A DNA stretch of 64,000 nt from Synchiropus splendidus (Eukaryota > Chordata > Actinopteri > Syngnathiformes > Callionymidae): positions 40,649,437 through 40,713,436 of the forward strand of contig NC_071334.1 in assembly GCF_027744825.2 (NCBI RefSeq), given 5' to 3'. Below, piece by piece: positions 1 to 23,532 of the stretch; positions within the stretch are counted from its first letter, which is position 1, and every line of letters begins with the position of its first letter. Both the position numbers and the translations under genes were made by a program. Under the pieces are notes generated by a model, which saw only the letters and a list, made by a program, of their open reading frames with translations, searched no databases and was not told the DNA's origin.

Positions 1-3000
1 TCTGCTATAGTGGGAGGTTAAAATTTCATGTTCTGAAGCTTCCCTGAAAAGTTATGGCACAATGCACAAAAACGCTTTTCAGCCTGAGATAAGGTGGGTT
101 TCGGAACGCCAAACATAAAAGTGTTGATAACTTTCGAAAAACACTTCAGACAGCTTAGATTTGATGTGCACCTACTAGAAAGACCCTTTCTGCTATAGTG
201 GGAGGTTAAAATTTCATGTTCTGAAGCTTCCCTGAAAAGTTATGGCACAATGCACAAAAACGCTTTTCAGCCTGAGATAAGGTGGGTTTCGGAACGCCAA
301 ACATAAAAGTGTTAATAACTTTCGAAAAACACTTCAGACAGCTAAGATTTGATGTGCAACTACTAGAAAGACCCTTTCTGCTATAGTGGGAGGTTAAAAT
401 TTCATGTTCTGAAGCTTCCCTGAAAAGTTATGGCACAATGCACAAAAACGCTTTTCAGCCTGAGATAAGGTGGGTTTCGGAACGCCAAACATAAAAGTGT
501 TGATAACTTTCGAAAAACACTTCAGACAGCTTAGATTTGATGTGCACCTACTAGAAAGACCCTTTCTGCTATAGTGGGAGGTTAAAATTTCATGTTCTGA
601 AGCTTCCCTGAAAAGTTATGGCACAATGCACAAAAACGCTTTTCAGCCTGAGATAAGGTGGGTTTCGGAACGCCAAACATAAAAGTGTTGATAACTTTCG
701 AAAAACACTTCAGACAGCTAAGATTTGATGTGCACCTACTAGAAAGACCCTTTCTGCTATAGTGGGAGGTTAAAATTTCATGTTCTGAAGCGTCCCTGAA
801 AAGTTATGGCACAATGCGTAAAAACGCTTTTCAGCCTGAGATAAGGTGGGTTTCGGAACGCCAAACATAAAAGTGTTGATAACTTTCGAAAAACACTTCA
901 GACAGCTTAGATTTGATGTGCACCTACTAGAAAGACCCTTTCTGCTATAGTGGGAGGTTAAAATTTCATGTTCTGAAGCTTCCCTGAAAAGTTATGGCAC
1001 AATGCACAAAAACGCTTTTCAGCCTGAGATAAGGTGGGTTTCGGAACGCCAAACATAAAAGTGTTGATAACTTTCGAAAAACACTTCAGACAGCTTAGAT
1101 TTGGTGTGCAACTACTAGAAAGACCCTTTCTGCTATAGTGGGAGGTTAAAATTTCATGTTCTGAAGCTTCCCTGAAAAGTTATGGCACAATGCACAAAAA
1201 CGCTTTTAAGCCTGAGATAAGGTGGGTTTCGGAACGCCAAACATAAAAGTGTTAATAACTTTCGAAAACACTTCAGACAGCTTAGATTTGATGTGCACGT
1301 ACTAGAAAGGCCTTTTCTGCTATAGTGGGAGGTTAAAATTTCATGTTCTGAAGCTTCCCTGAAAAGTTATGGCAAAATGCGTAAAAACGCTTTTCAGCCT
1401 GAGATAAGGTGGGTTTCGGAACGCCAAACATAAAAGTGTTAATAACTTTCGAAAAACACTTCAGACAGCTTAGATTTGATGTGCAACTACTATAAAAACC
1501 CTTTCTGCTATAGTGGGAGGTTAAAATTTCATGTTCTGAAGCTTCCCTGAAAAGTTATGGCACAATGCACAAAACCGCTTTTCAGCCTGAGATAAGGTGG
1601 GTTTCGGAACGCCAAACATAAAAGTGTTAATAACTTTCGAAAAACACTTCAGACAGCTAAGATTTGATGTGCAACCAATAGAAAGACCCTTTCTGCTATA
1701 GTGGGAGGTTAAAATTTCATGTTCTGAAGCTTCCCTGAAAAGTTATGGCACAATGCACAAAAACGCTTTTCAGCCTGAGATAAGGTGGGTTTCGGAACGC
1801 CAAACATAAAAGTGTTGATAACTTTCGAAAAACACTTCAGACAGCTTAGATTTGATGTGCACCTACTAGAAAGACCCTTTCTGCTATAGTGGGAGGTTAA
1901 AATTTCATGTTCTGAAGCTTCCCTGAAAAGTTATGGCACAATGCACAAAAACGCTTTTCAGCCTGAGATAAGGTGTGTTTCGGAAACGCCAAACATAAAA
2001 GTGTTGATAACTTTCGAAAAACACTTCAGACAGCTTAGATTTGATGTGCAACTACTAGAAAGACCCTTTCTGCTATAGTGGGAGGTTAAAATTTCATGTT
2101 CTGAAGCTTCCCTGAAAAGTTATGGCACAATGCACAAAAACGCTTTTCAGCCTGAGATAAGGTGGGTTTCGGAACACCAAACATAAAAGTGTTGATAACT
2201 TTCGAAAAACACTTCAGACAGCTTAGATTTGATGTGCACCTACTAGAAAGGCCCTTTCTGCTATAGTGGGAGGTTAAAATTTCATGTTCTGAAGCTTCCC
2301 TGAAAAGTTATGGCACAATGCACAGAAACGCTTTTCAGCCTGAGATAAGGTGGGTTTCGGAACGCCAAACATAAAAGTGTTAATAACTTTCGAAAAACAC
2401 TTCAGACAGCTTAGATTTGATGTGCACCTACTAGAAAGGCCCTTTCTGCTATAGTGGGAGGTTAAAATTTCATGTTCTGAAGCTTCCCTGAAAAGTTATG
2501 GCACAATGCGTAAAAACGCTTTTCAGCCTCAGATAAGGTGGGTTTCGGAACGCCAAACATAAAAGTGTTAATAACTTTCGAAAAACACTTCAGACAGCTA
2601 AGATTTGATGTGCAACTACTAGAAAGACCCTTTCTGCTATAGTGGGAGGCAATAATTTCATGTTCTGAAGCTTCCCTGAAAAGTTATGGCACAATGCACA
2701 AAAACGCTTTTCAGCCTGAGATAAGGTGGGTTTCGGAACGCCAAACATAAAAGTGTTGATAACTTTCGAAAAACACTTCAGACACCTTAGATTTGATGTG
2801 CACCTACTAGAAAGACCCTTTCTGCTATAGTGGGAGGTAAAAATTTCATGTTCTGAAGCTTCCCTGAAAAGTTATGCCACAATGCGTAAAAACGCTTTTC
2901 AGCCTGAGATATGGTGGGTTTCGGAACGCCAAACATAAAAGTGTTGATAACTTTCGAAAAACATTTCAGACAGCTTAGATTTGATGTGCAACTACTAGAA

Positions 3001-4764
3001 AGACCCTTTCTGCTATAGTGGGAGGTTAAAATTTCATGTTCTGAAGCTTCCCTGAAAAGTTATGGCACAATGCACAAAAACGCTTTTCAGCCTGAGATAA
3101 GGTGGGTTTCGGAACGCCAAACATAAAAGTGTTGATAACTTTCGAAAAACACTTCAGACAGCTTAGATTTGATGTGCACCTACTAGAAAGACCCTTTCTG
3201 CTATAGTGGGAGGTTAAAATTTCATGTTCTGAAGCTTCCCTGAAAAGTTATGGCACAATGCACAAAAACGCTTTTCAGCCTGAGATAAGGTGGGTTTCGG
3301 AACGCCAAACATAAAAGTGTTGATAACTTTCGAAAAACACTTCAGACAGCTAAGATTTGATGTGCACCTACTAGAAAGACCCTTTCTGCTATAGTGGGAG
3401 GTTAAAATTTCATGTTCTGAAGCGTCCATGAAAAGTTATGGCACAATGCACAAAAACGCTTTTCAGCCTGAGATAAGGTGGGTTTCGGAACGCCAAACAT
3501 AAAAGTGTTGATAACTTTCGAAAAACACTTCAGACAGCTTAGATTTGATGTGCACCTACTAGAAAGACCCTTTCTGCTATAGTGGGAGGTTAAAATTTCA
3601 TGTTCTGAAGCTTCCCTGAAAAGTTATGGCACAATGCACAAAAACGCTTTTCAGCCTGAGATAAGGTGGGTTTCGGAACACCAAACATAAAAGTGTTGAT
3701 AACTTTCGAAAAACACTTCAGACAGCTAAGATTTGATGTGCACCTACTAGAAAGACCCTTTCTGCTATAGTGGGAGGTTAAAATTTCATGTTCTGAAGCG
3801 TCCCTGAAAAGTTATGGCACAATGCGTAAAAACGCTTTTCAGCCTGAGATAAGGTGGGTTTCGGAACGCCAAACATAAAAGTGTTGATAACTTTCGAAAA
3901 ACACTTCAGACAGCTTAGATTTGATGTGCACCTACTAGAAAGACCCTTTCTGCTATAGTGGGAGGTTAAAATTTCATGTTCTGAAGCTTCCCTGAAAAGT
4001 TATGGCACAATGCACAAAAACGCTTTTCAGCCTGAGATAAGGTGGGTTTCGGAACGCCAAACATAAAAGTGTTGATAACTTTCGAAAAACACTTCAGACA
4101 GCTAAGATTTGATGTGCACCTACTAGAAAGACCCTTTCTGCTATAGTGGGAGGTTAGAATTTCATGTTCTGAAGCGTCCCTGAAAAGTTATGGCACAATG
4201 CGTAAAAACGCTTTTCAGCCTGAGATAAGGTGGGTTTCGGAACGCCAAACATAAAAGTCTTGATAACTTTCGAAAAACACTTCAGACAGCTTAGATTTGA
4301 TGTGCACCTACTAGAAAGACCCTTTCTGCTATAGTGGGAGGTTAAAATTTCATGTTCTGAAGCTTCCCTGAAAAGTTATGGCACAATGCACAAAAACGCT
4401 TTTCAGCCTGAGATGAGGTGGGTTTCGGAACGCCAAACATAAAAGTGTTGATAACTTTCGAAAAACACTTCAGACAGCTTAGATTTGGTGTGCAACTACT
4501 AGAAAGACCCTTTCTGCTATAGTGGGAGGTTAAAATTTCATGTTCTGAAGCTTCCCTGAAAAGTTATGGCACAATGCACAAAAAGGCTTTTCAGCCTGAG
4601 ATAAGGTGGGTTTCGGAACGCCAAACATAAAAGTGTTAATAACTTTCGAAAAAGACTTCAGACAGCTTAGATTTGATGTGCACCTACTAGAAAGGCCCTT
4701 TCTGCTATAGTGGGAGGTTAAAATTTCATGTTCTGAAGCTTCCCTGAAAAGTTATGGCACAATG
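1..4764 (+). repeat. 188-bp satellite array, young subfamily (left block)
   Basis: About 25 head-to-tail copies of a 188-bp unit; the anchor TCTGCTATAGTGGGAGG recurs at 1, 189, 377 and so on. Copies differ by only a few bases, for example GCACAAAAAC versus GCGTAAAAAC and GTTGATAAC versus GTTAATAAC. The block ends inside a monomer, where the retrovirus is inserted. Short open frames of 60-80 codons recur once per unit and are by-products of the repeat, not genes. No host gene is visible here. Confidence 0.98.
4760..4764. repeat. Target-site duplication, left copy (CAATG)
   Basis: CAATG directly precedes the 5' LTR and is repeated directly after the 3' LTR. Joining the flanks at one copy gives an uninterrupted satellite monomer, which fixes both ends of the provirus. 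Confidence 0.92.
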
Positions 4765-5211
4765 TGTTGTATATACTGGAAAATCGAAAATATTATAACT
4801 ATGCTTTGCACTTATTATGAGCACTTATTGAATCTGTATGCTTTGCACTTTTGAACTTGCATGGCATGCTCTAACCTCAGGGTGAATTTGTAAGCAGAAC
4901 ATGTTTTTAAGCCGAGCTTGCGATTATGGTTAACACTTAGAAAGGAACGTTGTATTAATAGAACCTTGTGGTCTTCACTTAGAACATAAGTTACATTTAT
5001 CAAAACAATGAAACTAACACTCAGCATGTTCAATGAATCTAAAACATCTGCATAAGACATAAGGGGTGTATCTAATGAAGTTAAAAACTTTCCACTAAGG
5101 ACGACAGCTAGAACACGTGATGAAAATTAAAACTTTCCACTGAAGATGACAAGAACACGTCACCCATTAATGACGCATTGGGGGATTGTTTATTGAAATC
5201 GGCAGTGTTGC

Positions 5212-5217
5212 TATAAA
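5212..5217 (+). promoter_or_regulatory. TATA box of the 5' LTR promoter
   Basis: TATAAA in a CTATAAAGG context. A pyrimidine-rich CTCGCTCTCGCTC stretch lies about 25 bases downstream and is a plausible start region (about 5235-5245). U3 would then be about 475 bp. The start site is inferred. Confidence 0.7.
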
Positions 5218-5523
5218 GGTCTAGGATAAACTGACCTCTCGCTCTCGCTCTTGATCCACGCTTTTGGCTTCATCCGTTTGCTGTAAGGTCTTGTATCTTA
5301 ACTTGGGACGGTGCTCTTGCTCTTGCTCTTAGGCCATTTGATTTAACTCTTTTTGTTGTTCTCTTATGGTTCTTTATTATTGATTGGTTGATTTTTATGA
5401 TTAATTCTTTTGACTTAATCTCTTTTATTGCATATACTTTGAATATATTTTTTATGATCTTTGACTTAATCCTTTTTATTGTGTATGCATTTTGATTATA
5501 TGATTTTTGACATTTATGTATGT

Positions 5524-5580
5524 GCACTAGCGTCTGGCAGTGCCTTTGACTAAGTTGGGTATTAGCGTCTGGCAATACCC
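5524..5580 (+). promoter_or_regulatory. Twin RNA hairpins with the same loop in the LTR transcript
   Basis: Two adjacent inverted repeats carry the identical 10-base loop AGCGTCTGGC on different stems. The first is GCACT/AGTGC (5524-5543) and the second GGGTATT/AATACCC (5557-5580). The stems differ in sequence but both pair perfectly, as expected if the structure and loop are what is selected. The GC dinucleotides inside the loop could pair, leaving a bulged A and a 5-base apical loop. The hairpins lie between the TATA box and AATAAA, so they would be in R and present at both RNA ends. Role unknown: possible binding site for a viral regulatory protein, or part of RNA processing or packaging. 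Confidence 0.6.
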
Positions 5581-5630
5581 TTGAGTTTATTGATGTTTAT
5601 TGATTTTATTGTTTTCATTATCCTTTTTTG

Positions 5631-5710
5631 AATTTTATTGTTTTATTACCCTTTTATCATTTTTGTATTGAATTTTATTGTTTTATTACCCTTTTATCAT
5701 TTTTGTATTG
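5631..5710 (+). repeat. 40-bp tandem duplication inside the LTR
   Basis: A 40-bp T-rich unit starting AATTTTATTGTTTTATTACC occurs twice in perfect tandem (5631-5670, 5671-5710). The same duplication is in the 3' LTR, so it predates integration. Confidence 0.9.
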
Positions 5711-5790
5711 AATTTGATTCTTTATTGATTTTACTGTTTTGTTATTCTTTTTATCAATTTTTTGGAGAAATACTTTTGACATAAAAACAA

Positions 5791-5796
5791 AATAAA
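5791..5796 (+). terminator. Polyadenylation signal AATAAA (5' LTR copy)
   Basis: AATAAA about 580 bases after the TATA box, giving an unusually long R of roughly 550-580 bases if it is the signal used. The 3' LTR carries the same hexamer at 23743. Confidence 0.55.
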
Positions 5797-5890
5797 ACTG
5801 AGTACGAATTAAGTACTGAAAAGGCACAACGGCATTGATCCCTGACTACTAAAGATTCGACTGGCTCCTGTACTACCATCAACTGGGTTA

Positions 5891-5899
5891 TAGGTGAGT
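5891..5899 (+). promoter_or_regulatory. Candidate major splice donor in the LTR (TAG|GTGAGT)
   Basis: TAGGTGAGT closely matches the vertebrate donor consensus, with GT at 5894-5895. Foamy viruses place their major donor inside the LTR, and this is the best donor-like site seen upstream of gag. Weaker sites lie in the leader (AAGGTAAT near 6629, CCGGTAAAG near 6788). Function is inferred. Confidence 0.45.
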
Positions 5900-6385
5900 T
5901 AATGCTGGATTGAATTAATGTCTGATTCCCTTTCCTGTGCACATGTAGTGAATGTCTCGACTGGTAGCATTATTCCATCCTGAATTATTATGTCAATGAT
6001 AAAGTGGTAGTTCAGAAGGCTGAGGTAATATTTTATTTAAGGAATGGATTGAGGATCTAATCATGTGTCCCTAAACGAAGCTAAGTAAAGAGACTACGGT
6101 AGAAGGTGTAGCATTGTAAGGTCAAGAACCTGTTTCTCAACAGGTCGGGCGAATTAAATAACCCGCTCAGTGAAGCGCCGACACTACTCACTAATATAAT
6201 AGGTGAAGTTGATACATCTATTATAGTTTTAGAACCGTGTCTGCAACAAGAGGCTGACTGAGTTGACCACACGAGGGGGCCCTTTACCAGAGAGGCAAAG
6301 GGAGGTAGTGTACTCGGAACTAGGGGCGGCTTGTTACAGCCAATTGCCCTGTACACAAAACCTTGAAATCCAAAACCCGGCGACA

Positions 6386-6403
6386 TGGCGCCCGAACAGG
6401 GAC
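6386..6403 (+). promoter_or_regulatory. Primer binding site, tRNA-Lys3 type
   Basis: TGGCGCCCGAACAGGGAC begins at the base after the LTR and is the 18-base PBS complementary to the 3' end of tRNA-Lys3, as in primate lentiviruses. Known foamy viruses use tRNA-Lys1,2, so the Lys3-type site is noteworthy. Confidence 0.95.
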
Positions 6404-6835
6404 ATGATTGAAAAACGTACAATCTATTTGTGAGTAACTGGACCCCAGAGTGAAACTCTGACGGGAAAAGTTCGGTAGTAAATAGATAGATCCTACTATC
6501 TCTGAGTTTTGAATCAATGATATAGATTCAGACTCTATCACTCGACAAAGTACGATTTAGTTGACTCTGTAATTTATCAAGGAGCTGCCCCTTGGGACTG
6601 ATCACCCCGAGTAGTGCAGTTAAAGTATTAAGGTAATTACAGTGCAACTGCTATAATAGCTGGAATACAGAAGTACAGCAAAAAGTCCCGTGAGGCCTTA
6701 TAACGGGCACCCCATAAGAAGTCCGCCAGGGACAACTGGGGAACTGCAGCAGGAAGCAGCGGCATAGTTCGGGAAACTGTTCATAGCCGGTAAAGTGAAT
6801 TCCTTGAATAATTTGACTGAGACTGCAGAATAAAA
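6404..6835 (+). other. Untranslated leader between PBS and gag
   Basis: No long frame. Only two short upstream AUG frames occur (6404, nine codons; 6517, two codons). By position it should hold packaging/dimerisation signals. Several short inverted repeats are present but none is diagnostic. Confidence 0.6.
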
Positions 6836-6937
6836 ATGAGCAAAGAGGTTGTGCCTGAAAGCAGTGGAGTCTCTAAGAGAAGAGCCTCCATAGCCGAATC
6901 TGAGGTTTTGACTGCCCCCCCGATATGTGGGTTGTAG
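6836..6937 (+). pseudogene. Probable original N-terminus of Gag, out of frame
   Basis: A 33-codon frame starts at an AUG with A at -3 and ends at TAG, just after a run of seven C (6915-6921). The gag frame is already open through this C run, so a one-base length change there would put this AUG in frame with the macro domain. The encoded peptide is hydrophilic with a KRRAS basic patch and no N-terminal Gly, hence no myristoylation signal. It could be the true Gag start broken by homopolymer slippage, a sequencing error in the C run, or an unrelated upstream ORF. Confidence 0.45.
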
Positions 6938-8958
6938 CATCTTTTCTGATAATCGATGCACGATTAGAAAATCAGGAATTATGGGATATTTTGCCTTTCG
7001 GTTCGTATACGCTCCTTAATCCACGGAGGTGCCCAAGACCTACCGATAGTGCGGGTATAGCTTGTTGGGTGAAAGAGAGTTTTCCTGAAGCGGTGAAAGA
7101 CTTTGACCAGGATCACCCGGGGGACTGGGCCCCAGGTGAGGCGCGTCCCTTGGACACCGGGGACTCGAGATTGCATACAATATTAATGGCTCATTACTTG
7201 CCCTTTGACGACAAGGACCCTGAGGGTTCCTTTAAGATACTTTCGACAACTTATCACAACTCCTTGACTCATGCCGGAACGTGGGCCGTCATTGTTCCCA
7301 TATTTGGGACAGGAGTGTTCAATTTCCCTCTCGGAAGGGCAGTGGAAATTTGTATTGATCACACTCGGGAATGGGTAAACCGTGACCCCGATTTTAACAG
7401 AATAGTAGTCCTCCTGGCTCCTGAGGCTGGGCTGCGGCAGGAAATACTCTGCCAATTAAAAGGGCGATTTAAAGTAGATCCAGTGAAAGTTCAGGACTAT
7501 GCAGCGTCCAGTAATTATCGAGTTGATGCGACATTAATTGCTGAACTAATGAGGATGCCCGTTGTGGGCAAGTCATATAAGGAGTTTGTCTTTGACCATG
7601 CCGTAGGGAATATTACTGACAGCTTTGTTCGTCAATACCAGCGCTACCCCGCTAAATCCGGAATGTATCCCCACGCTGATCTCAAAGAACACCAAACGTT
7701 ATACGGACCAACTGGTCCATCACCACTGACAAATATGGGGTCATTGGACACTGCATTACAAGAAATAGCCCATACTCCGACTGCAACTGCGCCACCCGCC
7801 TATGAAACTAGCGAGGCTCTCAGGGACCATGGCTATGCCACTCCAGTGAGGGCCCACTTCTCCCCGCCATCAGAGGATGACTCTGATAAGGGAGAACCCC
7901 TGCACGTGAGTGAAAACAGCAGAGAAATTATTACTAGTCTGGAAAAAATGGCGGGACAACTTAGTGCGATCTCACAACAAATAGAAAGTCATCGGGATCA
8001 GATCAATAGAAGTTTAAGCCAGGGAAGATTAGAATATATTTCAGGTTCCCCAGAAAATCGCCCACAGCCCATGCAACCACTTAATCCCTCTAATGGCTTA
8101 ATAGAGGCCTCGGGCCTTAATGCCCCAGGAAACTCTGATGCCAGAGACCCAGGGTTGAGTGAGTCAACTCCGGATGACATCCCGGTTATTAGAATGGACA
8201 ATGGATCCATGTTTATTATTTTGCCCACTTCTACGGCTAAATATAAACCCACTGGGGACAATGTAGTGATCCCCTTAAGAAAGTGGAACGGACTAGATGA
8301 GGTGAGGGCATTTATTCCGTGGAAAAAGAAGATTGGCAGAAAGGACCTCGATTATCAACTTTCACTTTTGAGTGAAGAAGTTCGTGACCGGAGTTACCGA
8401 GCCTTTGAGCGGGTCCATCACCTTGACTTCACTGATTGCGAAGATTCCTCCGTGGCTACTGTCTGTTTGACACCGTTAGTACATTCGCGCTCAGTAGAAG
8501 GTCAAATACACACCGGAGCCAGCAAAATTGCCCGGCTTGAATTGTCTAAGGTGACCCTTGACCTCAATCCTCCTGAATCATTGGGGGTTGTCACAAATAC
8601 ACAATTAGCACGATGGATGACGGCTACTTATGCGACGCTGGCCTCACTGGGTTATTTTGAAACAGTTAAGTGTCTGGTAGGAAACCGACAACTGGCAAAA
8701 ACACTCTATGACACAGTATTACTTTTAAAACAGGATAACTTTGCAAAGTATCTAGATAATTCTCCTCAGCTGCAGCATGGCTTAGAGGAGGAGGAGCGCA
8801 GAGAGCCAGAGGAGCCTCGGGTTTCCTTCCGACCCTCCTCTGCGTCTACACCACGTCCCCCAACTTCTCTACCCAGGTCCCCACGTGACGAACGGCCCTC
8901 CTCTGTGTCTGCACCACGCCCCTCAACCCCTCTACCCAGGTCCCCACGTGACGAATGA
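6925..8958 (+). CDS. gag: Gag, N-terminal part, with macro domain
   Basis: 677 codons to an in-frame TGA. Residues about 25-180 form a macro (ADP-ribose-binding) domain: an LLNP strand/loop (30-33), SAGIA then a helix (42-60), PGEA (70-73), a YHNSL helix (110-114), the hallmark GTGVFNFP loop (128-135), the following helix (138-151) and a last strand FNRIVVLL (157-164). A PPAY late-domain motif (290-293) fits ESCRT-dependent budding via NEDD4-type ligases. A coiled coil follows (about 330-368), then a mostly helical capsid-like stretch (about 450-610). The end holds two tandem 21-residue Pro/Arg/Ser repeats. In SARS-CoV-type macro domains the VNxAN loop carries the catalytic Asn; here the loop reads LNPRR, so ADP-ribose binding may remain without strong hydrolysis (inference). 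The start used is the first Met of this frame; the original may be at 6836. Confidence 0.85.
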   Translation: MWVVASFLIIDARLENQELWDILPFGSYTLLNPRRCPRPTDSAGIACWVKESFPEAVKDFDQDHPGDWAPGEARPLDTGDSRLHTILMAHYLPFDDKDPEGSFKILSTTYHNSLTHAGTWAVIVPIFGTGVFNFPLGRAVEICIDHTREWVNRDPDFNRIVVLLAPEAGLRQEILCQLKGRFKVDPVKVQDYAASSNYRVDATLIAELMRMPVVGKSYKEFVFDHAVGNITDSFVRQYQRYPAKSGMYPHADLKEHQTLYGPTGPSPLTNMGSLDTALQEIAHTPTATAPPAYETSEALRDHGYATPVRAHFSPPSEDDSDKGEPLHVSENSREIITSLEKMAGQLSAISQQIESHRDQINRSLSQGRLEYISGSPENRPQPMQPLNPSNGLIEASGLNAPGNSDARDPGLSESTPDDIPVIRMDNGSMFIILPTSTAKYKPTGDNVVIPLRKWNGLDEVRAFIPWKKKIGRKDLDYQLSLLSEEVRDRSYRAFERVHHLDFTDCEDSSVATVCLTPLVHSRSVEGQIHTGASKIARLELSKVTLDLNPPESLGVVTNTQLARWMTATYATLASLGYFETVKCLVGNRQLAKTLYDTVLLLKQDNFAKYLDNSPQLQHGLEEEERREPEEPRVSFRPSSASTPRPPTSLPRSPRDERPSSVSAPRPSTPLPRSPRDE

Positions 8959-10539
8959 CCATCAACGCCCCCTATTAACCGCCAGCCCACCCGAATGGTT
9001 CGAGCAAAAGACTCTAGAGGGCGTAAGATAACCTGGGGAGAGTACGACGCCACCAAGTGGCCGTGCGACCCCGGCAAGGAAGAATTAAGAGAACACCCTA
9101 TGGCTCATGACTATGATCCGCTGGTACACCAGCAGCCTCCGGAGCCAGGGTGGAATAAAGAAATAATTACACCCCAGTGGTTTCCTCATGATAGGAAGGA
9201 AAGGGCCCGGAGAATGCGATCTCCCTCTGCTGAGGAAATAGGTGAGTGGCAAGGAGTGTCAAAATCTTTTAAGCGGGCGTATCTTGCACGAGGGTATGAT
9301 GCACACCGTGATTCATTAACTGATATTTACTCTCATATGCCCAGGGCCACTCGCCAGCCGATGGAGCCCTGGGAGGGACAGTCTCAATGTCCCTCTGAAC
9401 CTGACGATCAGAGTAGCGATGAATCCGGCAGCGATAGTGACTCGCCTCTCGGTCCGCAGCCAGATCCCCCAACTCCCCCAAGACAGGGTGGCAGGATGGC
9501 CCCCGCAGGTAGGATAGGACGGCAGCGCACCCAGCTGGCAGTGTCGATTCTTGCAGGAGGCCCCCTATCGGAGCCCAGGCAAGACAGTGACGTCAGGGTG
9601 TCGAATAAAATTACCCTGGCAGACCTATGCAAAGCACTCCCAAAAAGAAGAGATAAAGAATCCAACTGTGAGTATGTCAGGAGATTGAATAAGGAGTTAT
9701 CTCCTGCTCAAATGACTGACCCGTTTATTAGTAAATATGTCTCCAGAGAGAATGGATTAGATTTAGTCCAAGGGCAGACATTAATGGATTTGTTAACCTC
9801 CGATGTGGCTACTTTACTCACTAGTCAGGTAGAAGCAACCATACGAGATCTGGTTGATAAAGTAAATAGAGGAGAAATGTCTCTTTTACAGGCTTATTCT
9901 ATTCTGGCAGAAGAGGGGGCTGATGAGTCACAGGTTAAGAGTTTTCTGATTCAGATTAACTGCCCCGAGCAAGCAAAATTAGTTCTGGAGTTCCTCCAAG
10001 CGAAGGGACTCGATGCAAAAACTGAGGTTATCACACGTCACAGCTCCCTTATGGGTGTGAGAAGAGCTCTTAGAAAGCAAAAAGAGAAACAGGATGTATC
10101 TGAACCTCGACAGCCAAAAAACGAGCAGAGGGGGAAGCCCCTTCCCCCTACCAAATCGAAACCAGCAAACCCACAGCGCGCCCCGCCTCGCACTCGATCT
10201 TCCTTTCCACCCAGAAAGGATCGAAACCAGCAAGACATCAGACCCGAGAGACAGGGTGGGGGCAAGCGCCCTCCATTCAACAAGAATATGAATGGCTCAG
10301 GCATGAATACCCACAGGCAGCCTCGCTGGAGGCAGAATCATGCCGACAATCGACCCCAAACAAAGGGGCAAGATCGCCCCCGTCCGAAACCAGTGTCCGA
10401 CGAGGACTGGAAAACGATGACCCAAGAGCAAAAAGAAGCGGTAATACTTGCAGCGGCACGGCGAAATCAGGATCAGGGAAGGGAACTGACCGCAGCCCAG
10501 AGGAAAGTGTTAGAGAAACACGAACCCAAAACCCAATAA
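8959..10539 (+). CDS. gag: Gag, C-terminal part, after in-frame TGA
   Basis: Same reading frame as the upstream part, open from the codon after the TGA (8956-8958) to TAA at 10537-10539; the first Met is at 8995 (514 codons). It has an acidic Ser/Asp stretch (about residues 135-150 from that Met), a helical domain (about 205-350) and a long basic Arg/Pro/Gly/Gln-rich tail, with no CCHC zinc knuckle. Foamy Gags also lack knuckles and use Gly/Arg-rich nucleic-acid-binding boxes. The TGA falls exactly where a third tandem repeat would begin, at the place of an Arg codon in the earlier repeats, so this is one gag of about 1200 codons cut by a nonsense change. Programmed readthrough is an alternative. 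The stop overlaps the pol start (TAATG). Confidence 0.82.
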   Translation, partial: PSTPPINRQPTRMVRAKDSRGRKITWGEYDATKWPCDPGKEELREHPMAHDYDPLVHQQPPEPGWNKEIITPQWFPHDRKERARRMRSPSAEEIGEWQGVSKSFKRAYLARGYDAHRDSLTDIYSHMPRATRQPMEPWEGQSQCPSEPDDQSSDESGSDSDSPLGPQPDPPTPPRQGGRMAPAGRIGRQRTQLAVSILAGGPLSEPRQDSDVRVSNKITLADLCKALPKRRDKESNCEYVRRLNKELSPAQMTDPFISKYVSRENGLDLVQGQTLMDLLTSDVATLLTSQVEATIRDLVDKVNRGEMSLLQAYSILAEEGADESQVKSFLIQINCPEQAKLVLEFLQAKGLDAKTEVITRHSSLMGVRRALRKQKEKQDVSEPRQPKNEQRGKPLPPTKSKPANPQRAPPRTRSSFPPRKDRNQQDIRPERQGGGKRPPFNKNMNGSGMNTHRQPRWRQNHADNRPQTKGQDRPRPKPVSDEDWKTMTQEQKEAVILAAARRNQDQGRELTAAQRKVLEKHEPKTQ

Positions 10540-11630
10540 TGAGGCCTTATAAAGTGCAGATATGGGTTAAAGATCAAAAAAGAGATTGCTATTATGATAC
10601 TGGAACAGATATATCCATATTACCGAGAGAATGGTTGGATGAAGAACTCGATCAGAAGATACTCGTAAAATTGGCTAATGGAGATGTTGTTATGATGGCC
10701 CTAGGTATATTTAATGGAAAAACTGTGGCAATAGGGCCTAACCCGTTATTGTCTCCGAATGATTCAGAATGGATTATTGATGCCCCTTCCTCAAATTGGA
10801 TGAGAGAAGTTAACAGGATTACGGCCATAGAAAAATTAGTGTGTGCCTCGCACATAAAAGACAAGGCACGCTTAGAAAAGATTCTCTATTCGGCCGAAGT
10901 GGCTCGATTTAAAAATGATGTAGGATTAATGAAAACAGAACCATATGTCATTAGGGGTGGTCTCCCCGGTAAACAAAAACAATACCCATTAGGAAAATAT
11001 GAAGCTCAATTGCTGGCAGTGTTTAAAGAATTAGAACAATTGGGGGTCATTGAAAAGATTAAAGAACCACCCTGCTTAATGCCAGTGCAGGCAGTACCAA
11101 AAAAGGACGGTACTGTTAGGCCTGTCCATAATCTGAAAATGTTAAATGACGTGACAGTGAAAGATACTAGACAAATAATTAATCCCCGACAAACCATGTT
11201 AAAAATACGCCCGGGAGAATATAACTCCAGTATTGACCTCGCTAATGGATTCTGGTCAGTGCCACTGGCGGAAGAGAGCAGGCCAAAAACTTGTTTTATG
11301 ATAAAAGGACAGGGCTACATGTGGACCAGGCTGCCCCAAGGATTTGTAAATTCCCCAAACGCATTTCAGGAAAGAATGGAGAAATTGTTGCATGACTTGC
11401 CAGTCACGTGCTATATAGACGATATATTTATCTCCACAGAGACAGAAGAAGAACATCTCGAGCTTTTAGAGGAAGTGATCCGGAGACTGAAGGATCATGG
11501 AATGAAGATTGGAATTGCTAAATGTGAGATAGGAGTACCGCAAGTTAAATATCTGGGTGTTTTGGTTACAAAGCACGCGGTAACTTCCACTATCTCCAAA
11601 ATCTGCACCCTACTACGCTTAAAGAGCTAG
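10539..11630 (+). CDS. pol: Pol, protease and reverse transcriptase part
   Basis: 363 codons starting with an AUG that shares its A with the gag stop (TAATG). The retroviral aspartic protease active site is at residues 20-22 (YYDTGTDISIL). Reverse transcriptase follows: palm motif SSIDLANGFW with catalytic Asp233, the RLPQGFVNSP motif, the YIDD catalytic box at 292-295, and KYLGVLV in the primer grip. It makes DNA from viral RNA. The frame stops early at 11628-11630; the thumb/connection continues in another frame from about 11600, consistent with one base lost in the AAAA run at 11598-11601. A start codon separate from Gag resembles foamy Pol, which is made from its own mRNA rather than as Gag-Pol. 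Confidence 0.92.
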   Translation: MRPYKVQIWVKDQKRDCYYDTGTDISILPREWLDEELDQKILVKLANGDVVMMALGIFNGKTVAIGPNPLLSPNDSEWIIDAPSSNWMREVNRITAIEKLVCASHIKDKARLEKILYSAEVARFKNDVGLMKTEPYVIRGGLPGKQKQYPLGKYEAQLLAVFKELEQLGVIEKIKEPPCLMPVQAVPKKDGTVRPVHNLKMLNDVTVKDTRQIINPRQTMLKIRPGEYNSSIDLANGFWSVPLAEESRPKTCFMIKGQGYMWTRLPQGFVNSPNAFQERMEKLLHDLPVTCYIDDIFISTETEEEHLELLEEVIRRLKDHGMKIGIAKCEIGVPQVKYLGVLVTKHAVTSTISKICTLLRLKS

Positions 11631-11665
11631 AAAAATGCTTAGGAAAACTGGGGTGGCTGCGAAGT

Positions 11666-13525
11666 ATGATTCCTTATTACTCTACTTTAGCGAGACCTGT
11701 TGAGATAATTAAAAATAAGGTCAGGTCATTCGACAAGCGGTCCCTAAAATTAATAGAGCACAATAGAATGCTAACGCCAGAAGAAACAGAAACCTGGAAC
11801 TGTCTTATTCAACACATTCTTACAGATGGGGTGAAGCTCGCTCCGTATCGAGATGGACAGAACATCTCCGTGGTAGTGTTGGAGGAAAAGGAAAATGGGG
11901 GGTGCGCGGCAGTCTACGAGGAAAGTAATGAAACACCGATTTGCTACGTATCTGTCAGATATTCACCCACTGAAAGTCGATTTGCCCCAGCAGAAAGAGA
12001 ACTGAGGTTATTATGGAAAGTTTATACTGAACTGGCTTCTAACTTAGGCCAGGTTTATGTAAAATGTACAGTACAGAATGACCTCACTAAAGAAATGGTC
12101 AAGGACACGGTGGAGTTTGCTAAAGCTTATGCCTCTAGATGGGGAAAGTGGAAGCAAATGCTTCTAGATCCGAATTGGTCATTTGTAATGGCTAAGTCTA
12201 GGCAGCAGCCTAAAATCCCTACGATGTCTCAACCAGACTATACAGGGATATACACCCTTTTTACTGACGGTAGTAAAACATCTCAGGATCCCGAGGGATA
12301 TTGGGGTTTTGTGTTATACAAACGAGACAAACCGATATATAAGGAAAAAGGAAGAATGGGCAAAACAGCACAGGAAGCCGAGCTACAGGCAGTTGTCAGC
12401 GGGCTACAATATGTGAAAAAGAAAGGAATAAAATCCATACGGATTGTGACCGATAGTTGGTATGTGTCGGAAGGGCTGAAAGATAACCTTAAATACTGGC
12501 AGCAACGAGACTTCCAGAATTATAAAGGTAAAGAACTGGAGCACCGTGACTTATGGATAGTGGTGAACCAGATGCTGCAACATATAAAATTGTGGGTGAC
12601 ACATGTCAATAGTCACACGGGACTCCAAGATTTTGATCACATGGGAAATGATGTGGTCGACAGACTAGTGCAGACTAGAGCAGTTGTAGTGGGCACCTTG
12701 ATTTTTCCTGATAAATGGAAGAATGATCAAGGGAAACTTGTCATCCCTCAGGAAGAGAGGCTGGATTATGTCCAGCATATACATCGCGCTTTGCTACATG
12801 TTGGTAATGAGAGAACGCGGCGATGGATGGTTGATAACGGGATTGAGGCCGGCCCTCTCAAAGACACAATATCGCTGGTTAGACATAATTGTGAGATATG
12901 CATGGAGAAGGGATTGTTGCCTCCTATTGCTTATCAAGAAGGCAAAATAGCTGAAGAATTCCCAGGCATTTCTGCATCTATGGACGTAGGTGTCCTGGGG
13001 AGTCACTTCGGTCAATATAAAAAATTCCTGGTAATAGCTGATAATGGGGGAGGACACACCCGAGTCTACCCCATTAAAAAGGAAACCACAAAGACAGCAA
13101 AAGAGTGTGTGATGTCATTTATTCAGGGGAACCCAGTCAAAAGCCTCAGATCTGATAATGCCGCCATGTTTACTTCTAAACACTTTCGTTCGTGGTTGGA
13201 ACAGGTGGGGATACGACATGTCTTATCTATCCCGCACCAATCCAACACTAATGGAGTCGCGGAACGCGCAGTGCGCGCGGCAAAATCACAAATACTGTTG
13301 TATAAACATAGATGGCACTTACCTGAAAACCTCTTTGCCATTAACCAACAGCTCAGTCTCCCTAAGTTGCGGGGTCATGACCCTGCCCGCTCTCACGGGC
13401 CCTCTGTATCGTTACAGGTGGGCAGTGAGGTGTGGATACTCGCCACTGGAAGGTCTACTACGATAGTGAAAGTCGAAGGGAACGTACTTACGGGAAAAGA
13501 TGGCCACAGGTACCACCCTAAGTAA
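11666..13525 (+). CDS. pol: Pol, RNase H and integrase part (frameshifted)
   Basis: Open from about 11600; the first Met is 11666 (619 codons). After the RT connection comes RNase H, with Asp201 in FTDGSK, the Glu in AQEAELQAV, the Asp in VTDSWYV and a final Asp in GNDVVDR. Integrase has an HHCC zinc finger (His373, His378, Cys409, Cys412) and a D,D(35)E core (Asp440, Asp497, Glu533), then a basic C-terminal domain. It degrades the RNA strand and inserts the DNA copy. All catalytic residues seen are intact, so the only visible damage in pol is the one-base frameshift. The last 26 bases overlap ORF-A in a different frame. Confidence 0.93.
   Translation: MIPYYSTLARPVEIIKNKVRSFDKRSLKLIEHNRMLTPEETETWNCLIQHILTDGVKLAPYRDGQNISVVVLEEKENGGCAAVYEESNETPICYVSVRYSPTESRFAPAERELRLLWKVYTELASNLGQVYVKCTVQNDLTKEMVKDTVEFAKAYASRWGKWKQMLLDPNWSFVMAKSRQQPKIPTMSQPDYTGIYTLFTDGSKTSQDPEGYWGFVLYKRDKPIYKEKGRMGKTAQEAELQAVVSGLQYVKKKGIKSIRIVTDSWYVSEGLKDNLKYWQQRDFQNYKGKELEHRDLWIVVNQMLQHIKLWVTHVNSHTGLQDFDHMGNDVVDRLVQTRAVVVGTLIFPDKWKNDQGKLVIPQEERLDYVQHIHRALLHVGNERTRRWMVDNGIEAGPLKDTISLVRHNCEICMEKGLLPPIAYQEGKIAEEFPGISASMDVGVLGSHFGQYKKFLVIADNGGGHTRVYPIKKETTKTAKECVMSFIQGNPVKSLRSDNAAMFTSKHFRSWLEQVGIRHVLSIPHQSNTNGVAERAVRAAKSQILLYKHRWHLPENLFAINQQLSLPKLRGHDPARSHGPSVSLQVGSEVWILATGRSTTIVKVEGNVLTGKDGHRYHPK
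13403..13417 (+). promoter_or_regulatory. Candidate splice acceptor before ORF-A
   Basis: TGTATCGTTACAG|G with AG at 13416-13417 inside the integrase frame. No AUG occurs between it and the ORF-A start at 13500, so splicing here makes that AUG the first one. Confidence 0.45.
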
Positions 13526-15098
13526 CTTCGACTTAAGTGTAAAAATCAGGATGGAAGCTAACCGAGACCATGTGCCAGGATGGGTTCAGGGGGTAGGGGA
13601 AGACTATGTTAAAATGTACCCCGATCGAGTCTTCCCGAATAATGGCCTCCTTGTTATGGCCTGGGATGGTTCTAATCGTTCCTGGAAAAAGGGGATTGTT
13701 ATGCCTTATACTCACCCTACCACCAGTGTTAGGTGGTCTAATTATGAACCTGGTGATTGTGCCCTTTGTGCTAAGCCCATTTTTGTCCTCATCTGGTCTG
13801 GTGATGCAAGGTACAAGCATGAGCACCGTCCTGAGCAAGCGGAGGTAGGAGCTGAACACCTGGTGGGCGGGATCGAATTAATGGGATCTGCCCCTTTCAC
13901 GTTCTGCATGTGGTGCTGGGAGTCATGGGGGGGTCGATACCAAATATTACGTAAAGACACCCACTGCAAGCCATGCATCTGTGGCCGAAGTGAGGGGGAC
14001 TGGGCCGTGTGTGATACAGGCACCCCCTGGCAGATAAACCCAGCACAATTTTTGGCGCTACGGCATCGTTTTCATTCAAACGATTGTCTCATGCAGCCCC
14101 CACTTGCATTAAGGGCCAGTACTGTTGACTCCTGGAACTGCCCCATCCTGATATATCAGACTATGTGGACTACTAGTGATGATGAATTGTCATCGAAGTT
14201 CAAAAGGAAACTTTCAATGATCCCCAAGGATACCACCATGAAATGGGAAGACTTCCTCCCGTGGAAGTGGGAGGATGGCTTACATCTGTCTAGAGACGGA
14301 AGCCTATCTTTGCCAGGCTTTAGTTGGAGAAATTGGGAATCCACCTCTTTGGGAAGGTGGTGGACCGAACAATTATGGCCCCAGGATAAGGAGGTGAAGG
14401 GGAAAGTGTACCACCCTGATGTGTACAACTACCCCCATTTATCCAACAATAAAAGGATTTTTACAACTTCTGGGACCTTGCCCAGACATCCCAATGAAGC
14501 AAAAGAAGTTAGGGTCTGCACTATAAAGCGTACTCTTATTCTTGTTACTGAATGTGGCCCTCGAACAGTGCCCGGGGCGGCCCATGTCCTTATTGCGTCC
14601 ACCCGCATCGCATGGTACCCGTTGGGGGTCTTCATAGAGGTGAAGACTGGAGATTTGATGATATTGACCAATGTCTCGATCCCGGTTGTGCCCGTAGCAA
14701 AAGAAAAATTGACTTGGTGGAGGTCAGCTTGGCTGAGGAAAAGATCTAAGCTGAGTCGTACTGGATTCTCTGAGGCTGTTCTGGACCTGGAGATGCCAGG
14801 CAACACATTTTTCCAGCAGCACCTGAGGCCCCGCCTAGCTGTATATGAGATTGGTCCAGAGGGGGAGAGGAATAATCCCAAAAACAGCCCGGCTATTATG
14901 AACCAATCAGGAGAAAAAAGGGAGTCCGAGTTGCAAGAATTAATGCCACCGCCCTCTTCTCACCCACAGGATCTCAATAATCCTGGGTCAGAAGAGGAAG
15001 AGGCCCCTAATAAACACGATAAGGGCAAACGGCCAGCTAACGGTAAGCAATCGAGAATAGCCCGCCTTCTTAAAAGAAGGAAGGGAAAGAAGGAATAA
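13500..15098 (+). CDS. ORF-A: Cys-rich, basic-tailed accessory protein between pol and env
   Basis: 532 codons, not recognised. The start AAGATGG is a strong initiation context and the first AUG after a candidate acceptor at 13417. Features are a Cys cluster suggestive of zinc binding (CALC at 87-90, CMWC at 136-139, CKPCIC at 156-161, Cys171), many Trp residues, a hydrophobic beta-like middle region, a hydrophilic Pro/Glu-rich segment (about 455-505) and a basic nuclear-localisation-like tail (about 515-532, RLLKRRKGKK). No signal peptide or clear membrane segment. Its position is that of lentiviral vif-type genes; the zinc cluster plus nuclear signal would suit a regulatory or host-antagonist protein, but no function can be assigned. 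Its stop overlaps the env start (TAATG). Confidence 0.8.
   Translation: MATGTTLSNFDLSVKIRMEANRDHVPGWVQGVGEDYVKMYPDRVFPNNGLLVMAWDGSNRSWKKGIVMPYTHPTTSVRWSNYEPGDCALCAKPIFVLIWSGDARYKHEHRPEQAEVGAEHLVGGIELMGSAPFTFCMWCWESWGGRYQILRKDTHCKPCICGRSEGDWAVCDTGTPWQINPAQFLALRHRFHSNDCLMQPPLALRASTVDSWNCPILIYQTMWTTSDDELSSKFKRKLSMIPKDTTMKWEDFLPWKWEDGLHLSRDGSLSLPGFSWRNWESTSLGRWWTEQLWPQDKEVKGKVYHPDVYNYPHLSNNKRIFTTSGTLPRHPNEAKEVRVCTIKRTLILVTECGPRTVPGAAHVLIASTRIAWYPLGVFIEVKTGDLMILTNVSIPVVPVAKEKLTWWRSAWLRKRSKLSRTGFSEAVLDLEMPGNTFFQQHLRPRLAVYEIGPEGERNNPKNSPAIMNQSGEKRESELQELMPPPSSHPQDLNNPGSEEEEAPNKHDKGKRPANGKQSRIARLLKRRKGKKE
14952..14969 (+). promoter_or_regulatory. Splice acceptor for env mRNA
   Basis: A pyrimidine-rich GCCCTCTTCTCACCCACAG|G with AG at 14968-14969. 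The first AUG after it is the env start at 15098, so a spliced RNA would translate Env directly. Confidence 0.6.
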
Positions 15099-18000
15099 TG
15101 AATTTATGGGACAAATTCTGGTATTGGAAAGCTAGGCGCTGGTGGCAATTTAAGGCAAGACAACAATTGGCATATAAAGATCAAGCCAAAGACATGCAAC
15201 AACAGACGCCAGCTACAATTTCCAGGAAACAAATGAAACGAGACAAAATGATCAAGGAATGGGAGAAAACCACTAGGATGTCTCCCTTGAGTCTTTTTAT
15301 AATTGGAATGTTATTATTCATACTAATATTAGTTATAGCCTCATGGTCAAATATAGTCTATGAACACATGACCCATACTAGCAGTGTCACCCGACGTTGG
15401 AAATTAAAAACAGTACACTGTAAAAACTGCACCATTCTGACTCCAGAAACTAGAGAAATACCCCTACCAATTGCAACAGAGAAAAGTGGCACTCAATTTG
15501 ATCAAGCTTTATGGATGAGACAAGCAGCTGTCTATCTAAATATACACGGAGCTGTAAGTGGCACGTGTCAATATGCTGAGCAAAAATCTGCTGAACAGGA
15601 AATGACAGGTCGGGCTGTCACCGCAAAACCCAGACAGAGACAGCGCCAGAGTGTGAAAAGATCTGTGAACAAAATCACAGAAGCAGCTACTATTTTGATA
15701 GCTACCATCATGACAATTACCCCCACTATAAATAATCAGAAACAAAATGCCAATACTACTCAAGACCAAATAGAAACCTATGTTCCCCCGCCTGCTATTA
15801 TTAAGACAATCCCATTATCAGACCACATTGAAATTAATAATGACACTTCAGAATCTGCGAGTACAGATAAGAAGGACACCGGAGATTGTGATATCCAATT
15901 TAAGAGGGCCAATGTGTCAGATTGTGATGAAGGACTCATGAGCTGGCTTCTTCAGGCATCTCAGGCAGCATATGAAAGGCTGTGTAGATACAAGGCTCAG
16001 TGTGGTCAGCAGAATGAAACCTTATGTAGTTACAATACCTGGGAGGATATAGCATCTAGTTATGGACCCACATCCAAGGAATTCGTAACAGTAAAAGTAA
16101 AGCTAATAAATCATGAGGAGATGAGACTCTCTGGATGGTCCATCGGCATTAGCCCTCTTAAAACCTGTCATTATAGAGTTTTTGCCCAACAGACAAGACG
16201 AGGCTGGACGATGGGAGAAGATAGGTATTATCAGATGAAAACATGTCAGAAGATTAATGCTACCCATATATGGGATGCCCCGATTATCAAAAGAATTGAA
16301 CCAGACAGCTTTGATAATAAAACATGGGAACAAGAACTGTGGGCAACCACGGAAACTTATGGAAATGATGAATGGGATAAAAGTAATCAAATAGGACAGC
16401 TTCTGTTAGATATAGCCCCCCTGCCTTTTTCGGCCAACCCTGACCCCGACGTGTTAAACACTGATCCGACTGACCCTGCTCCTAGAAGAGTGAGAAGAGG
16501 GCAGGAGTACACACTTGAGAGCCTATGCACTAAAGGAATGTTCCAAAAGGTAGAGGCAAAAACCACGTCGTTATCATCTAGTGTTATTTCTGCCGCTATA
16601 GTAGCGGCGAATCAAAATAAACACAAAGGAAAGAAGGAACAACAAACTGCGTTCATTCTCTCCGAACACGAAGACAGACAATTTGAGAATTGTTTTTATT
16701 TGATGACAAATGGTTCCAGACCATGGTCAGACGGCAAGCCTCCCCCTGACACTCATTTCAGGAGAGAGGAGGTTTACCCCAGATGCAAACCAGGAAAAAA
16801 TTGCAGAAACAGAGGACCTGAAAATGATGGAGATGATGCCAACGCACAAGACACCGGATTACGTAATGTTTATTGGAGATGGCATTTGCTATCCACCACG
16901 AGTGAACAAAATAAGAACAAAATTAACGGGACAGGAAAGGAATACATTGCAGATCAGCACTCAGATAGTAAATTTTGGAAATTATGGCTAAAATACCCTG
17001 TCGTGCAGCGAAGGGTCATGTGGTACAAATTAGGGGCGCTGCAAGAAAATGGTATATTATGCCATAACATGCAGTTTAATAATAAAGGAATGGAAGAAGG
17101 AAATGATTGTCACAAAGAGCCCTGTGAGTGTCGAAGGGATCAGATAGGACTAGCAATTCCCATGATGACTCAACAACCCTGGAGGAATTGGGTCAATAAT
17201 AATCAGTCGACCTGGTGGGCTGAGGCTAAGCAATGTTTGTCCAAAGTACTAAGGATAAACATTACTCATGTAAGATATGCATATCAGCTCATAAATGAAA
17301 AACCTAACAATACAGAAAACAGAATATTTTATCCTATGAGGGGAGAAGATTGGGCAAGAGCAATGGAGGACTGTACCAAAGACCTACCGGTCAATCTATC
17401 CTGCCCACTCCCATCTAGAAACTCCATTGGTCAACGACCTAGTGGTCAAGAGCAAGGAGACCATAAGTATACTATTTCTCCGACATGTCTAAATAATGAG
17501 GCTGAAAAAAAAGACCCCACGGTTTTCTTTAAAGCATGGGAGTGGTCTCAGTTAGCCGGCCTTTTGTTAGGAAAAGGATTAGGATGGAACTCGTTTGACA
17601 CAGAAAGCTTAGGAATGTTGATATGGCCCCATATTGTGTCATATAAAGAACTAAAGGAAAATACTCTTACTGCTCACCAGAAAGGAAAGAAGAATACTAC
17701 GATAATACATCAATTCCTGGTGGGCTCCGGACTCCCACATCTAACAAACCCATTGAACAATCTGAAGGAAAGAGTTAAAAAATATGAGATAGAAGTACAG
17801 ACTGAGCAAGGGATGTGGGGTTACGACTCAGTGTTCCAAGAAAATATTACTGAATGGAAGAGACCATCTACGGAAGGACTCCGAGATAATGACCAAAGGA
17901 CGTGGTATGCTACACTTAAAGAAGCAACATTATTGTTTAACCCAAGCCAACTGTGGGGAGATATTACACAAATTACAGGAGGTGAAAGAACCTCGGGAAT

Positions 18001-19441: not shown

Positions 19442-19449
19442 CTCAGGGA

Positions 19450-19468
19450 CCTTGCTTATGTCTTACAG
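19450..19468 (+). promoter_or_regulatory. Candidate splice acceptor before ORF-B
   Basis: CCTTGCTTATGTCTTACAG with AG at 19467-19468, two bases before the ORF-B AUG at 19471. Confidence 0.55.
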
Positions 19469-19470
19469 AT

Positions 19471-20055
19471 ATGAAGACCAAGGTATCGGCTACAAAAGTA
19501 CCTGAGGGGGAAGCGAATAAGGAAAACCTCAGGATTAAATTTATGACCTTAATATGGGTGTTTGGCACCATCATAATAATATATGAATCACTTAATTTTA
19601 AAATTACCTACTTCTCCAACAGAGAAGATTGGTGTCAGAGAACAAACATTACTCTTTGTAGATCCATAACCACTCAGAGTACTTATAGATCTCTTCTGGA
19701 ATGGAGAAAGGTTGAAACAACCACTATAATAACAGAAAAATACATCGTAATCAGTGCCAAGGCATTGGTTTATGACATCACTGAAGGATTGACTAAATGG
19801 CAAAATGATACAATGTTACAGAACGATACACTGAGCTCCATGGCTTATTACCCACGTTACATTATACACCCAAAAGTGTTTGAACACTGCACGGATCCAG
19901 GAGATAGTGTTTGGACTATCTTCTGGATGATGCTGACATGGGCATACATTGGAGCAGACATACTGATGTTCCATCTACGTCAACAGGAAACTGAAGGTAA
20001 CACCTCCATCTACAAGCACACAGGCAAAGCTGCGCAGGAAGTATCTTACATTTAG
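19471..20055 (+). CDS. ORF-B: small two-span membrane glycoprotein
   Basis: 194 codons, not recognised. A basic N-terminal tail of about 24 residues precedes a hydrophobic segment (25-39). The middle (about 45-145) has three NxT sequons (NIT at 59, NDT at 112 and 118) and three Cys, so it probably faces the lumen. A second hydrophobic segment (147-168) is followed by a hydrophilic tail. It starts 29 bases after the env stop and just after a candidate acceptor, and could be made from its own spliced RNA. Size and topology recall small accessory membrane proteins of complex retroviruses, but no homology is claimed. Confidence 0.75.
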   Translation: MKTKVSATKVPEGEANKENLRIKFMTLIWVFGTIIIIYESLNFKITYFSNREDWCQRTNITLCRSITTQSTYRSLLEWRKVETTTIITEKYIVISAKALVYDITEGLTKWQNDTMLQNDTLSSMAYYPRYIIHPKVFEHCTDPGDSVWTIFWMMLTWAYIGADILMFHLRQQETEGNTSIYKHTGKAAQEVSYI

Positions 20056-20066
20056 TCGCACTGAGC

Positions 20067-20717: not shown

Positions 20718-20738
20718 CATTTTGTAATGTTTCTGCAG
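20715..20738 (+). promoter_or_regulatory. Strong splice acceptor overlapping the ORF-D start
   Basis: A TTGAC branch-like motif, a T-rich tract and TTTCTGCAG|GG with AG at 20737-20738. It lies 11 bases downstream of the AUG at 20727, so splicing here would remove that AUG. Confidence 0.6.
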
Positions 20739-22694: not shown

Positions 22695-22708
22695 AGGAGG
22701 ATATTTTC

Positions 22709-22717
22709 GGAGGGGGA
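22709..22717 (+). promoter_or_regulatory. Polypurine tract
   Basis: GGAGGGGGA directly abuts the 3' LTR (TGTTGTATA), as expected for the plus-strand DNA primer. It lies 15 bases after the ORF-D stop. Confidence 0.9.
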
Positions 22718-23163: not shown

Positions 23164-23169
23164 TATAAA
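23164..23169 (+). promoter_or_regulatory. TATA box of the 3' LTR
   Basis: TATAAA at the position equivalent to 5212 in the 5' LTR. It could drive transcription into the right-hand satellite array. Confidence 0.6.
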
Positions 23170-23475: not shown

Positions 23476-23532
23476 GCACTAGCGTCTGGCAGTGCCTTTG
23501 ACTTTGTTGGGTATTAGCGTCTGGCAATACCC
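23476..23532 (+). promoter_or_regulatory. Twin hairpins, 3' LTR copy
   Basis: Same pair as at 5524-5580, stems and both AGCGTCTGGC loops unchanged. The spacer between the hairpins differs at two bases (AA versus TT) while the stems do not. Confidence 0.6.

Follow-up and report, generated by a model that had tools for sequence, protein, structure and literature searches.

Macro domains have been met in fish retroviruses before: according to a review, which cites Basta et al. 2009, epsilon-like fish retroviruses contain macro-domain open reading frames (ORFs) (PMC4977317; this and the other papers given by PMC number were available in part, and statements about them refer to those parts). Here we describe a macro domain in an endogenous retrovirus within a 64,000-nucleotide stretch of the Synchiropus splendidus genome (contig NC_071334.1, positions 40,649,437 to 40,713,436, forward strand), called the window below and used for all coordinates. 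Some fish retroviruses have ORFs for a macro domain or a CNPase, and what the window element has in common with them is that a fish retrovirus encodes a macro domain; in the epsilon-like elements the domain is an additional ORF (PMC4977317), whereas in the window the element is spuma-like and its gag-position polyprotein has the domain as its N terminus. The foamy-like endogenous retroviruses (FLERVs) of fish are similar in overall build. AciFLERV, AliFLERV, and DrFV-1 share with the window element a spuma-like Pol, a tRNA-Lys primer site, a giant genome, and extra ORFs on either side of env, the upstream ones lying behind pol (PMC5512871). The window ORFs of 532, 1447, 194, 216, and 655 amino acids are comparable with the eight ORFs of a giant ray-finned-fish FLERV (PMC5512871). 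FLERVs of ray-finned fish reach 17 kb (PMC6431247), and the window provirus measures 19.6 kb, or about 18 kb counting one long terminal repeat (LTR), a size that equals or exceeds the largest that we found cited for a retroviral genome. Position is also the ground on which ORF-1 of the fish FLERVs is annotated as gag, and the available part of PMC5512871 names no macro domain, or any other, in it. Zebrafish DrFV gag has been described as having no detectable homology to known genes (PMC10699275).

Viral macrodomains have been listed for coronaviruses, togaviruses, iridoviruses, rubella virus, and hepatitis E virus (PMC7729036), and a survey of NAD and ADP-ribose systems in viruses reports 2H domains in fish retroviruses and, in the part available, mentions no retroviral macrodomain (PMC9503650). 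A preliminary description of this locus, made from the letters alone, had known of no classical retrovirus Gag with a macro domain. Macro-domain ORFs are nevertheless not wholly new to fish retroviruses, given the epsilon-like ORFs (PMC4977317), the one statement on a retroviral macro domain that our literature search met; for a foamy-like Gag the search found no report, with incomplete coverage that does not establish absence from print. What is new is the fusion of a macro domain to the gag-position frame of a foamy-like virus, which gives a recognizable domain to the Gag of such a virus. Viral MacroD-type macrodomains stand alone or within multidomain proteins, which in RNA viruses are non-structural. 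They share a fold class with the Gag domain, as found by profile and fold search, whereas the window domain is part of a gag-position frame, its catalytic Asn is missing, and it has one glycine where they have three.

We conclude from its sequence that the first 184 residues of the gag-position ORF are a divergent macro domain. The features of this region are as follows.

6925 to 8958, forward strand: gag ORF1, 677 amino acids, with the macro domain N-terminal; the first long ORF past the LTR and primer-binding site
6925 to 7476, forward strand: macro domain, residues 1 to 184 of ORF1
6982 to 7062, forward strand: WDI...LLNPRR...SAGIA stretch, residues 20 to 46, pairing with GDI...IVNAAN...GGGVD
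7297 to 7326, forward strand: PIFGTGVFNF, residues 125 to 134, equivalent of the P.ISTGVYGYP loop and seen in several alignments
7792 to 7803, forward strand: PPAY, which we take to be a possible late-domain motif
8179 to 8844, forward strand: most constrained part of ORF1, residues 419 to 640, omega about 0.1
8995 to 10539, forward strand: second part of gag, 514 amino acids, with a basic C-terminal region; mostly continues the ORF1 frame in other copies

The motifs LLNPRR, SAGIA, PGEA, YHNSL, and GTGVFNFP occur in the window protein where the preliminary description had placed them, and the domain starts where it had said; the end lies slightly beyond its 7470, at about residue 184 (7476). 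The Pfam comparison that it proposed has a divided outcome. Pfam Macro matches residues 52 to 143 of the whole window ORF (E 0.0034, 17.7 bits) and the first 230 residues at E 0.0014 and 19.0 bits, and the window copy alone thus falls below the curated PF01661 cut-off of 22 bits, as does the gag frame of L003 (16.5 bits). All five of the diverged copies scanned exceed that cut-off, namely, L015 (37.8 bits; E 2e-9, residues 41 to 143), L019 (35.7), L013 (32.5), L014 (32.1), and L012 (29.6). The alignment used for most comparisons joins the window (L001) to 14 of the other 27 gag loci, those omitted being identical or nearly identical over the macro domain to rows used. PF01661 matches 15/15 of its rows at E <= 10 (best E 1.2e-9); other weak Pfam matches among the rows are to MFD_D3 (6/15), IL8 (3), and Psu (1). 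Its profile has 18 PDB matches at E <= 10, every one a macro-domain protein (best E 2.5e-4), counting 1spv, whose PDB name is older, and a phmmer search of the PDB with the window piece returned 11 matches at E <= 10, ten of them macro-domain proteins and the remaining one a nanobody. The identity first proposed from motifs is thereby borne out.

Comparison by hhalign with 39 YmdB-type macrodomains (E. coli YmdB and 38 of 80 fetched bacterial loci, all of YmdB type) gave a probability of 94.7, an E value of 6.3e-8, and a score of 54.0. As controls, 200 column-shuffled versions of the gag alignment scored at most 26.1 and the reversed alignment scored 16.2. The likeness is not due to chance. 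A structure model made from the gag rows alone (pLDDT 47.6, pTM 0.42) still retrieves macro domains, with PARP14 macro 1 ranked first by Foldseek. Toxoplasma mitoribosome proteins account for two (Foldseek) and three (VIA-align) of the best 50 matches listed, and a few further matches among those listed are macroH2A fusions. In protein databases, neither the full ORF (7997 candidates scored) nor the macro alignment (2223 candidates) had a relative at E <= 10, and six short peptides used as patterns against IMG/VR gave zero matches.

The domain recurs across this genome. A gag search of its 582.7 Mb gave at least 67 matches at 69 to 100% identity, a lower bound, with 66 of 201 candidates scored. 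In 18 of the 28 gag loci compared, the window being one of the 28, the open frame that contains the macro domain is 1189 codons or longer, and the domain is conserved across copies; in the ten loci with shorter frames, only open pieces were compared. The frame reads 33 to 35 codons further upstream in 24/28 loci, opens just before the window's ATG in two (the window and L025), and is broken inside the macro domain in two; the domain is without its start in L010 and L024. The window gag ORF is therefore shortened at both ends, and other copies hold uninterrupted frames in which a segment of about 30 residues, followed by the macro domain, begins one long polyprotein. The earlier placement of the domain at the N terminus of Gag accordingly holds for the gag-position ORF of the window and needs this upstream segment added for copies with uninterrupted frames. 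Many copies of gag cluster around the window on contig C1 (37.5 to 40.8 Mb and 45.5 Mb), and three of the loci, L003, L004, and L005, have identical macro-region protein; the clustering suggests duplication of array segments carrying the provirus.

Comparison of the window with L012, L014, L015, and L019 over residues 20 to 180 gave omega values of 0.19 to 0.27 (bootstrap bounds 0.10 to 0.44). In the same four comparisons omega is 0.38 to 0.49 for the linker, and residues 419 to 640 have a value of about 0.1. These values indicate that purifying selection acts on the macro domain, the outcome sought by a check proposed in advance. As to origin, a PF01661 profile search of the genome found 75 places, all above the cut-off; 30 of these loci were fetched, 22 of them gag and eight non-gag. 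One of the eight, L111, is PARP14, as identified by its KH domains, and this genome thus encodes PARP14. The gag profile scores poorly against all eight; the host PARP14 exon is the closest, with an E value of 0.016 in this small set, so the cellular PARP14 and PARP9 type of macro domain, first in the fold search, is only remotely similar to the Gag domain. Since the non-gag macro loci are only remotely similar, nothing points to the domain having been taken from this host in recent times.

Which ligand functions the domain retains can be read, with due caution, from the residues of its pocket. The hhalign pairing sets WDI (with D21) against GDI, LLNPRR against IVNAAN, and SAG-I-A against GGG-V-D, an order of motifs that fits, at low posterior confidence. 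In this pairing, the Asp D21 and the first Asn are kept in 14/14 covered rows. The place of the catalytic (second) Asn, at residues 35 to 36, is taken by Arg (12 rows) or Ser (2 rows) and then by Cys (14 rows), with Asn in none of the 14, and a MAFFT alignment likewise puts no Asn there; the reading of LNPRR as a loop that has lost this residue is upheld by both alignments, at low local confidence. Only the last glycine of GGG is kept (13/14 covered rows), and Ala46 stands at the catalytic-Asp position of cellular enzymes in 14/14. The residue set of an active MacroD-type hydrolase (the NAAN Asn, GGG, and Asp/His or an equivalent) is thus absent, as far as the local alignment can be relied on. 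The loop equivalent to P.ISTGVYGYP, which presumably holds the ADP-ribose diphosphate, is retained: GxGVFN is kept in 15/15 rows, with T129P in one. We favor the interpretation that the macro domain is a reader of ADP-ribose with weak or no hydrolysis; other residues have taken the place of the NAAN catalytic Asn, of the triple glycine, and of the Asp/His dyad, and poor or absent hydrolysis would be expected from this. An alignment that also included the bacterial domains was rejected for folding, its first third being seemingly misplaced.

On balance we consider it probable that this Gag starts with a macro domain that would bind ADP-ribose with little or no hydrolysis and would be aimed at macroPARP marks or at ADP-ribosylated chromatin. 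The polyprotein presents, in order, the divergent macro domain, PPAY, the constrained domain, and the basic tail. ADP-ribose on proteins may be bound via the retained adenine Asp and the diphosphate loop, and with many Gag copies per shell, many readers would lie near the Gag N termini of both assembling and incoming shells, keeping Gag attached to host targets that bear ADP-ribose. Marks written by macroPARPs such as PARP14 would be the likeliest of these, whose connection with this virus is presumed; such a mark, whether on Gag itself or on host factors, could be masked. Alternatively, the reader may tether the virus to ADP-ribosylated chromatin before integration. In mammalian foamy viruses, chromatin tethering is the task of Gag's chromatin-binding sequence.

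RNA-virus macrodomains are best known as erasers of ADP-ribose, and a binding-only macrodomain in a retroviral structural polyprotein would extend the conflict over ADP-ribose to retroviruses, with the module on the particle. More tentatively, and with the odds somewhat against it, the whole giant foamy-like lineage may display many ADP-ribose readers on each Gag shell, for masking or capturing macroPARP marks or for chromatin tethering; if so, a lineage-wide reader would make Gag itself an agent in the PARP arms race.

Several observations weigh against the reader interpretation. Local alignment confidence is low for the N-terminal third, which contains the would-be catalytic loop and which MAFFT places differently, and the macro model is itself of low confidence (pLDDT 47.6, pTM 0.42). 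The alignment rows are related copies from few families, and counts such as 14/14 therefore represent few independent events. The places found by PF01661 in the genome do not include the window's own 99% family, and the families that do pass there are the diverged ones only. For three of the four copies compared (L012, L014, and, slightly, L015), the bootstrap range of the macro domain overlaps that of the linker, and macro omega rises to 0.36 to 0.56 among closer families, perhaps through drift after insertion.

The strongest competing explanation, although an unlikely one, is that the macro fold was kept while the ADP-ribose pocket decayed, with the domain binding RNA or G-quadruplexes or serving assembly. 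The degenerate NAAN and GGG would fit such a history, and Gag proteins bind RNA. A precedent is reported for macrodomains of the SARS-unique domain (PMC2674928). A ligand-free role would not, however, require the diphosphate loop kept in 15/15 rows (the one T129P aside) or D21 kept in 14/14. Less probable again is that the domain actively hydrolyses ADP-ribosyl marks by means of an unusual catalytic set. In coronavirus macrodomains the position of the catalytic Asp of cellular enzymes is occupied by an Ala that is non-functional (PMC7729036), and they share this trait with the Gag domain, which has A46 in all 14 covered rows. The coronavirus enzyme nevertheless keeps NAAN and the triple glycine, whereas Gag lacks the second Asn and two of the three glycines, and the SARS-CoV-2 domain is nearly inactive once that Asn is changed (PMC7729036).

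The reader interpretation also supposes that the polyprotein is Gag, a name given because of its position, the PPAY motif, the constrained part, and the basic tail. It could instead be an accessory leader protein that forms no capsid, which we regard as very improbable. The rest of the ORF has zero Gag matches in Pfam and PDB sequence searches, and a second structure model, of a 612-residue piece of the remaining Gag, was of unusable quality (pLDDT 35, pTM 0.20) and gave zero Foldseek matches at E <= 0.001, with no capsid fold seen in it. Yet ORF1 and ORF2 are the sole ORFs of at least 150 amino acids between the primer-binding site and pol, where a retroviral gag belongs; they form one frame of at least 1189 codons in 18/28 loci; PPAY, the strongly constrained part, and the basic tail are all present; and fish FLERV ORF-1 is likewise annotated as gag by position (PMC5512871). 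The view that the resemblance arose by chance, or that the window copy alone once picked up a host exon, could appeal to the score of that single copy below the Pfam cut-off and to the missing family in the PF01661 list, and it is contradicted already by the 15/15 matching rows, the shuffle control, and the remoteness of the eight non-gag loci (best E 0.016), which leave it a negligible chance.

The element that carries this Gag is, on sequence grounds, a recently inserted giant foamy-like endogenous retrovirus, bounded as follows.

4760 to 4764 and again 24323 to 24327, forward strand: target-site duplication CAATG, 5 bp
4765 to 6385, forward strand: 5' LTR, 1621 bp, TG...CA ends
6386 to 6403, forward strand: primer-binding site of TGGCGCCC type, from sequence, which we assign to the tRNA-Lys type
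22709 to 22717, forward strand: polypurine tract, adjoining the 3' LTR
22718 to 24322, forward strand: 3' LTR, 1605 bp, TG...CA ends

The provirus, with both LTRs, spans 4765 to 24322 (19.6 kb; about 18 kb counting one LTR), and the paired LTRs, target-site duplication, primer-binding site, and polypurine tract are those of a foamy-like retrovirus. The two LTRs differ by nine substitutions in 1605 aligned sites (0.56% divergence), and the insertion is taken to be recent because this divergence is low. The insertion site is a 188-bp satellite array, copies of which flank the provirus on both sides (1 to 4764 and 24323 to 64000), with a flip in orientation at about 52.7 kb.

The remaining ORFs are as follows.

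10539 to 11630, forward strand: pol, protease and beginning of reverse transcriptase, with its own ATG, in a frame different from that of gag
11666 to 13525, forward strand: pol, RNase H and integrase (Pfam RNase_H E 4.2e-23, rve E 2.6e-10)
13500 to 15098, forward strand: 532-amino-acid ORF between pol and the 1447-amino-acid ORF, in the position of fish FLERV acc3/acc4 (PMC5512871)
15098 to 19441, forward strand: 1447-amino-acid ORF, env candidate by position
19471 to 22694, forward strand: three further ORFs of 194, 216, and 655 amino acids, accessory candidates

The protease and reverse transcriptase ORF matches Pfam RVT_1 (E 6.7e-33) and, below its cut-off, Spuma_A9PTase (E 0.0031). Its best PDB matches are 7ksf and 7kse (A9 protease, reverse transcriptase, and RNase H; E 1.1e-37), ahead of the Pr125Pol entries (E 2.1e-36 and 4e-36) and of the next entry, 4ol8 (E 1.1e-25); we take the 7ksf, 7kse, and Pr125Pol entries to be from foamy viruses. 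The RNase H ORF also matches 7ksf best (E 1.1e-15), and its integrase part is not decisive. Among PDB chains, then, Pol is closest to those of spumaviruses for protease-reverse transcriptase and RNase H, in line with the foamy-like context first proposed, and by sequence it is spumavirus-like, as in the giant fish foamy-like elements. In the window copy, Pol has the foamy-type arrangement of an ORF of its own with its own ATG, unfused to Gag; against this, two gag copies (C17:2483907 and C8:3595393) have open frames of 2225 and 2176 codons, lengths as if gag and pol were a single frame. The window Pol is split over two ORFs (10539 to 13525), and the provirus appears interrupted in pol and gag alike. 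Pfam scans gave zero matches for the 532-amino-acid ORF and nothing above cut-off for the env candidate. The 194- and 216-amino-acid ORFs (19471 to 20717), downstream of the env candidate and ahead of the last ORF, contain stretches that look hydrophobic by eye.
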